A DNA stretch of 64,000 bases, from NCBI RefSeq assembly GCF_003952505.1, contig NZ_CP034450.1, forward strand, positions 4,092,001 through 4,156,000, given 5' to 3'. This DNA comes from Mesorhizobium sp. M4B.F.Ca.ET.058.02.1.1. GTDB lineage: Bacteria > Pseudomonadota > Alphaproteobacteria > Rhizobiales > Rhizobiaceae. A model generated the notes under the pieces. That model saw only the letters and a program-made list of their open reading frames with translations. It was not told the origin of the DNA and did not search any database. Shown here one piece after another: positions 42,949-43,126 of the stretch. Positions within the stretch are counted from its first letter, which is position 1, and every line of letters starts with the position of its first letter. The translations under genes and the position numbers were made by a program.

Positions 42949-43126
42949 CCTATCCCATCCTTGCCTAATCGGGCTTCGCTTGCGGCCCAGGCGACTGTTC
43001 GGGGTCGATGGAACGGCGGACGAAGACCCTCGCTCTCCCACGGGCTTCAAGGCCCAAAGATGCTCCGGTCTCTCGTCCGCCACCGCACCTGCTGCAATAG
43101 CAGAGTCGGCACGGGACAAGTTACAA
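42949..43126 (-). ncRNA. Predicted bridge RNA of the IS110-family element
   Basis: Read on the minus strand, the leader folds into two stem-loops. In loop 1 the stem GGCGGACGA...TCGTCCGCC, extended by AGACC/GGTCT, encloses an internal loop with GCATCT on one side (43058-43063) and GGGAGAG on the other (43033-43039), capped by GGGC-CTTGAA-GCCC. GGGAGAG is complementary to CTCTCCC at the insertion junction, and GCATCT resembles the other flank GCACCT. Loop 2 (GCCT/AGGC and GGGC/GCCC stems) is preceded by ACAGTCG (42992-42998), identical to the element's own terminus. This is the layout of target and donor guides. The fold was judged by eye. Confidence 0.6.

Follow-up and report, generated by a model that had tools for sequence, protein, structure and literature searches.

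The insertion sequence at positions 42002–43125 (minus strand) of the window, the 64,000-nucleotide stretch of the Mesorhizobium sp. M4B.F.Ca.ET.058.02.1.1 genome analysed here, is very probably an IS110-group, IS621-like element with a leader from which a bridge RNA, comprising a target loop and a donor loop, is transcribed. It clearly adds a new example to the recently discovered RNA-programmed DNA insertion and does not represent a new kind of system. Judging from its sequence, the recombinase is presumed to be functional, and the transcription, excision and insertion of the element are assumed by analogy with characterised relatives.

The element is 1,124 bp long and, as inserted, begins with TGTAAC and ends with GACAGTCGCT. 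Its ends were defined by three near-identical copies in the same genome, namely the window copy, copy b at 4.03 Mb and copy c at 5.97 Mb. The point at which the ends are split from the flanks was taken from empty sites corresponding to copies b and c and to the sister locus L021/L030. The left end comprises 177 nt before the ATG, and the right end 17 nt after the stop codon. The IS110 group is characterised by a short right end and by a long non-coding left end that precedes the gene and contains the bridge RNA, which agrees with the layout predicted here; a right end of this size does not match the IS1111 group, in which the bridge RNA is located in the right end. A TTGACA motif at 42017–42022 (minus strand) overlaps the stop codon; in the predicted circle it would precede the left terminus by 15 nt. 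This placement may resemble that of the promoter rebuilt at the circle junction, as reported for IS621. The consensus promoter scan of positions 41950–43250 gave no sigma-70 site, and therefore no promoter is claimed for the element.

The element interrupts a rhizobial palindromic repeat, which was recognised from a repeat family of the same genome and from paralogous sites. The left half of the repeat lies at 43126–43156 (minus strand, approximate extent), and the palindromic part of the right half, CTCCCCGTGAACGGGGAGAGGGG, at 41979–42001 (minus strand). All three copies of the element sit in the same kind of repeat, and the genome contains 30 exact GCACCTTCTCCCC sites and seven exact CACCTCTCCCC sites. 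Beside the element, at 40668–41858 (plus strand), lies a 396-aa ORF that by appearance encodes a putative integrase-type transposase. The 3′ part of this ORF is repeated elsewhere in the genome, with several copies 100% identical, and some of these copies adjoin the same repeat without the IS110 element.

The gene at 42019–42948 (minus strand, ATG at 42948) is intact and encodes a putative IS110 RNA-guided recombinase of 309 aa. The protein matches Pfam PF01548 and PF02371, as well as the NCBIfam model of IS110 RNA-guided transposases, NF033542 (236.2 bits against a cut-off of 140). Two distinct PDB sequences are matched at E ≤ 0.001, those of ISCro4 (3.1e-39) and IS621 (5.7e-36). The ISCro4 recombinase (PDB 9t56) is the best solved-structure match, extending over residues 5–306, the likeness being one of protein sequence. 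The residues D8, E52, D94, D97 and S233 align with D11, E60, D102, D105 and S241, which are reported as the catalytic residues of IS621 (PMC11208158); the alignment was read by hand, and the chain numbering is offset by two. A DEDD RuvC-like domain and a Transposase_20 domain with a catalytic serine thus appear to be combined in one recombinase, as in the IS110 group. It is possible, though rather unlikely, that the system operates as described and that the window copy is no longer active. Its ORF is intact, the protein is identical in all three copies and their DNA is nearly so, which suggests recent movement and argues against an inactive copy.

The first-pass annotation had proposed from the letters of the stretch that the leader folds as a bridge RNA. 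This is borne out by the fold of the region and by helix covariation beyond that of shuffled alignments. The predicted RNA is encoded by the left end at 42949–43125 (minus strand), for which fold, covariation and the covariance model R1 agree. The 178-nt segment 42949–43126 folds at −80.1 kcal/mol (z −3.01), and one of 200 shuffles was equally good. The long stem described at the outset, GGCGGACGA/TCGTCCGCC plus AGACC/GGTCT, is present in this segment on the minus strand and encloses GCATCT on its 5′ side and GGGAGAG on its 3′ side. The arms of the target-loop stem were placed at 43067–43081 (5′ arm, GGCGGACGAGAGACC) and 43015–43028 (3′ arm, GGTCTTCGTCCGCC), and the inner hairpin of the donor loop, GGGCCGCAAGCGAAGCCC, at 42971–42988, where it is supported by pairing across leaders. 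A 5′ stem-loop region at 43083–43111 is weakly supported, with 17 to 25 of 27 leaders paired at the five pairs tried. All of these features are read on the minus strand.

The leader alignment comprised 27 distinct leaders from 37 elements that have a recombinase identity of at least 55% and whose left end could be recognised. Seven loci in which no left end could be made out (L222, L199, L129, L132, L023, L221 and L134, of which some denote one and the same place) were excluded. When the helices of the window element were imposed on the 27 leaders, 92.3% of the 728 cells paired. Both-side changes were found in 11 of the 27 stem pairs, compared with 4.3 ± 1.3 after shuffling, and the observed number was reached in none of 500 shuffles. 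Sliding the partners by one to three columns lowered the pairing to 31.9–55.8%, although this control favours a structure drawn from one of the aligned sequences. The covariation rests mainly on the target stem, in which eight of the 14 pairs of the helix show both-side changes; the donor-loop helices are nearly invariant, with two such pairs. A first version of the donor outer helix, CCAUC/GAUGG, paired in 97.8% of cells and was replaced by the alternative CAUC/GAUG plus CCC/GGG, which with the inner hairpin pairs in 99.3% and was used in the model. The leaders thus share two stem-loops with internal loops, the target loop followed by the donor loop, and covariation supports this structure.

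The covariance model R1, built from the 27-leader set and giving rough E-values, detects the leader in 29 of the 55 further IS110 loci given to it at E ≤ 0.01, including loci from Planctomycetota, Chloroflexota and Xanthomonas; the remaining 26 gave no match at this threshold. Every one of the 29 is on the coding strand, and the position of its end relative to the projected first codon ranges from 54 nt upstream to 9 nt inside the coding sequence. At the Rfam gathering thresholds, no bridge-RNA family was found in the window, the only hit being a tRNA elsewhere in it.

The two target guides face each other in the first internal loop. The left target guide AGCAUC-UU at 43057–43064 (minus strand), whose UU pairs with the core, would pair at seven of eight positions with GGCACC-TT, one of the pairs being U·G. 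The right target guide GGGAG-AG at 43033–43039 (minus strand), whose AG pairs with the core, would pair with CTCCC at all five non-core positions, which fall on an antidiagonal. The complementarity of GGGAGAG to CTCTCCC at the right junction, noted in the initial reading, is therefore upheld, as is the single difference between GCATCT and the left flank GCACCT, which corresponds to the U·G pair.

The same pairing was scored in the related elements. Right-guide columns 92 to 96 pair with right-flank bases 5 to 1 in 33/35, 33/35, 34/36, 35/36 and 35/36 elements, respectively. In 33 of the 35 scorable elements all five non-core positions of the right target are paired, always by Watson–Crick pairs, and the pairing fails in L125 (0/5) and L196 (2/5). 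Elements L123 and L022 were left out of the right-guide counts, as they have no readable right flank. The left guide of L196 fits at 8/8 positions, and both L125 and L196 were perhaps rearranged after insertion. There are ten distinct right guide/target pairs, eight of which are perfect: GGGAG/CTCCC, GAGTG/CACTC, TGGGG/CCCCA, GAATG/CATTC, GGCAG/CTGCC, GACAG/CTGTC, GGGGG/CCCCC and TCCTC/GAGGA. Related elements at other targets thus carry other guides. With each distinct pair counted once, the right guides fit at 42 of 50 positions against 26.3 ± 3.4 after permutation, and the left guides, with 26 distinct pairs, at 147 of 208 against 126.0 ± 4.5 (non-core positions alone, 105 of 156 against 85.9 ± 4.4). 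Each of these values was reached in 0 of 20,000 permutations, which ignore the relatedness of the elements. The earlier proposal that the RNA is programmed for the local repeat gains support from this result.

The fit of the left guide is looser than that of the right guide. In the fixed register, misfits occur in L220 and L217− (2/8 each), L125 and L218 (3/8) and L188 and L217+ (4/8). A one-base shift, made by hand only, mends the fit of L220, L217+ and L218, and all of the misfits were kept in the counts. The left-guide permutation excluded L110, L119 and L117 (contig ends), L122 (N) and L121 (a flank of poly-C and N). The target guides thus covary with the insertion sites, with L125 and L196 as exceptions on the right and several misfits on the left. 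The locus L217 (G521:C1:760205-763400) contains two related IS110 elements in opposite orientation within about 2.5 kb, 75% and 64% identical to that of the window; their guides differ, and the right target guide is paired at 5/5 positions in each.

An alternative explanation would be that the recombinase itself recognises the palindromic repeat, through protein contacts or because the DNA forms a hairpin, and that the leader serves only as a structured 5′ UTR controlling translation. Such a role has been proposed for the leader of ISPpu9 (PMC8450116), and many targets of the elements examined here fall in palindromes. The bases of the right guide, however, change with the right target across eight distinct types, including GAGGA and CATTC, and the pairing falls on one antidiagonal of positions. 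We consider this explanation highly improbable, although both functions could coexist in one leader. That the guides resemble their targets by chance, or through low sequence complexity of GC-rich repeats, is scarcely credible: CTCCC and GGGAG are frequent in the repeats, one and the same right guide/target pair occurs in 22 of the 35 scored elements, and wrong-strand control positions also reach high z, yet the right-guide fit withstands counting each distinct pair once, and all four guides sit where the IS621 plan places them. At single positions, the left guide (z up to 4.4) indeed does not exceed the wrong-strand control (z up to 6.0), and on the right side one control value reached a z of 8.6. 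The guide signal is distinguished from the control only by the ordered diagonal and by the permutation of whole guides.

Recognition of the target by a bridge RNA also accounts for two more distant cousins in the same genus, with protein identities of 43% and 46%, which target other segments of the repeats with matching right guides. All 12 copies of the 43% cousin in genome G134 are located at CCC-CT-CAYCT, and their right guide reads AGGUGAG; ten of the targets contain CACCT and two CATCT, the latter giving one G·T pair. All six copies of the 46% cousin in genome G025 are found at CC-CT-CATCC, with the right guide GGAUGAG. These guides were read by eye. Insertion of IS110 elements, including ISRm19, into REP-like repeats has been known since at least 2006 (PMC1525189).

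Both donor guides of the window element fit its own ends. The left donor guide ACAGUCGC at 42991–42998 (minus strand) is identical to the right terminus ACAGTCG-C and invariant in the 27 leaders. The first-pass annotation had pointed to ACAGTCG, the sequence of the right terminus, before the second stem-loop, and GAACAGTCGC indeed precedes the second hairpin. It had found no convincing right donor guide; such a guide, UUA-GG-CAAG, is present at 42960–42968 (minus strand) and would pair discontiguously with CTTGTAA of the left terminus. In this pairing, CAAG pairs with CTTG (the core and TG), UUA pairs with TAA and GG is looped out. A discontiguous pairing of nine against seven nucleotides is also reported for the right donor guide of IS621 (PMC11208160, PMC11208158). 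The sequences TGTAA, ACAGTCGC and CAAG are invariant in 27/27 leaders, and the first triplet of the right donor guide is UUA in 22, UUG (allowing a G·T pair) in four and UUC in one (L193). In two Mesorhizobium cousins, a change in the ends is accompanied by a change in the left donor guide (ACAGTTG and ACGGTTG), as read by eye in a comparison of three end types made without statistics.

The junctions show that the core dinucleotide differs between donor and target. The donor core CT is found at the right junction (42002–42003, minus strand) in all three copies, and the left junction keeps TT (43126–43127, minus strand), the same junction as in copies b and c. The first-pass annotation had placed a CT core at both junctions; this holds for the right junction, whereas the left one reads TT according to the empty sites. 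Those of copies b and c, seen in relatives, read CACCTTCTCCC, and the reading common to b, c and the sister locus is CACC-TT-CTCCC. For copy c, the locus L100, collinear on both sides, reads GCGGCACCTTCTCCC, and GGGCACCTTCTCCCC is found at L080, which adjoins the same gene. For copy b, L065, with the same neighbouring gene and a different sequence further left, also reads GGGCACCTTCTCCCC. Most other loci examined for copies b and c are without the repeat. Among the 30 loci shown for the sister locus L021/L030, eight contain the empty repeat CCGCCACCTTCTCCC, two contain the element and the others differ. Since these empty sites read TT, the target core of b, c and L021/L030 is TT, and insertion of copies b and c into single-T sites is ruled out. 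A search for the empty site of the window copy itself did not find one, and its target core is presumed to have been TT from its left junction, which is identical to those of b and c. In the repeats of its class in the genome, CTCCCC is preceded by GCGTCCT, GCACCT, GCACCCT or GCATCCT, several with CT. With TT as the left core and CT as the right, the circle junction should read GACAGTCG-CT-TGTAAC, one T shorter than the -CT-TTGTAAC given earlier.

The left junction reads TT in 12 of the 37 elements, all 12 of which have CT on the right. CT is present on the right in 36/36 elements whose right end was found (L022 alone has none), although these ends were located by a pattern requiring CT, with which a TT could not have been scored. 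With L030 (the orthologue of L021) and L112, L116 and L189 (contig ends 6–9 bases past the right junction) set aside, eight TT-type events whose flanks can be read on both sides are left, the window copy, b, c, L020, L021, L141, L113 and L192, and a TT empty site was seen for three of them. CT-type insertions also occur: L120 and L191 read CC-CT-TGTAAC. The element L022, with a target loop identical to that of the window, reads GGCATC-CT-TGTAAC, its right flank being missing. The left junctions of L114 and L188 are one T short of the TT model, and their left guide and palindrome suggest TT targets; the L188 orthologue is rearranged. The second T of the core is thus kept, and the first base differs between donor (CT) and target (TT).

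In IS621, CT is reported as the typical core with a less conserved first base, and the top strands are reported to be cut just downstream of the core (PMC11208158). IS621 also recombines with TT cores, less efficiently, when matching changes are made in guides, target and donor alike (PMC11208158), which is a different case from the TT target and CT donor described here. The UU of the left guide and the AG of the right guide would pair with either a TT or a CT core through U·G and G·T wobble. Whether one core-degenerate RNA accepts both TT and CT targets, so that the junctions record the strand of exchange with the target on the left and the donor on the right, is an even question in our judgement. 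If true, natural insertions would thereby attest to cleavage of the top strand downstream of the core and to biased resolution of the core mismatch.

We propose the following route for the insertion. The left guide AGCAUC-UU and the right guide GGGAG-AG match the two halves of the split rhizobial palindromic repeat, and the left and right donor guides, ACAGUCGC and UUA-GG-CAAG, match the right and left termini, respectively. By analogy with IS621, the recombinase would excise the element as a circle containing the GACAGTCG-CT-TGTAAC junction, and the RNA would bring the circle and the repeat together. The top strands would then be cut just downstream of the core and exchanged. Such a cut would leave the target core at the left junction and place the donor core at the right one.

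The closest functional model is IS621 of E. coli as described in PMC11208160 and PMC11208158. Both are IS110-group elements with a leader upstream of the recombinase and a target loop followed by a donor loop; in both, the left guides pair with the bottom strand and the right guides with the top strand, the right donor guide is discontiguous (9 nt against 7 nt), the second T of the core is kept and insertion occurs in palindromic repeats. The window element differs from IS621 in its distant protein sequence, in its rhizobial repeat in place of the E. coli REP and in the natural use of TT as well as CT as target core. Its right target guide covers five non-core positions, compared with G77–G80 including the core in the IS621 structure (PMC11208158); right target guides longer than that of IS621 are reported for other orthologues (PMC11208160, PMC11208158). 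ISRm19 of Sinorhizobium meliloti, likened here by its description, is a rhizobial IS110-family element with 4/4 copies in REP, in a report that predates bridge RNAs (Tobes and Pareja 2006, PMC1525189). ISPpu9 of Pseudomonas putida resembles the window element in belonging to the IS110 family, in residing in REP sequences and in having a long, structured leader; the antisense leader RNA Asr9 was shown experimentally for ISPpu9 and none is shown for the window element (PMC8450116).

The Rfam family RF02234 (sX15), which carries the name of an sRNA of Xanthomonadaceae, has full-length matches on the strand opposite to the IS110 leader in three of the nine loci given: L159:2308-2465 (180.8 bits), L152:2317-2476 (110.0 bits) and L169:2318-2476 (105.3 bits), all on the minus strand. 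In the three genomes behind these loci, each of the eight sX15 matches is located upstream of an IS110 homologue, on the antisense strand. The alignment reaches the gene start within about 40 nt in six of them, and in L246 and L249 only the later part is aligned. At the window element, sX15 was the sole Rfam family with a hit below the gathering threshold, at 42950–43087 (plus strand; 22.9 bits against 55, E 0.33), and the search of the whole genome with sX15 gave no match at E ≤ 0.001. On sequence grounds, sX15 may comprise antisense RNAs comparable to Asr9 of ISPpu9, or its Rfam entry may have been assigned to the wrong strand. The link between sX15 and IS110 was not found in the literature searched, where sX15 was only named in a table, which is no proof that the link is unpublished. 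To our knowledge, antisense RNAs at bridge-RNA loci have so far been known only from ISPpu9. The sX15 link suggests that they may be more common.

The rhizobial bridge-RNA family represents a natural retargeting series, with nearly constant ends and many different targets. In Mesorhizobium, three guide programmes aimed at different repeat segments occur in one genus. Because the target core (TT) and the donor core (CT) differ, the outcome of strand exchange can be read from genome sequences. The series shows which guide positions evolve and which cores are tolerated, and this helps in the choice of recombinases for genome engineering.
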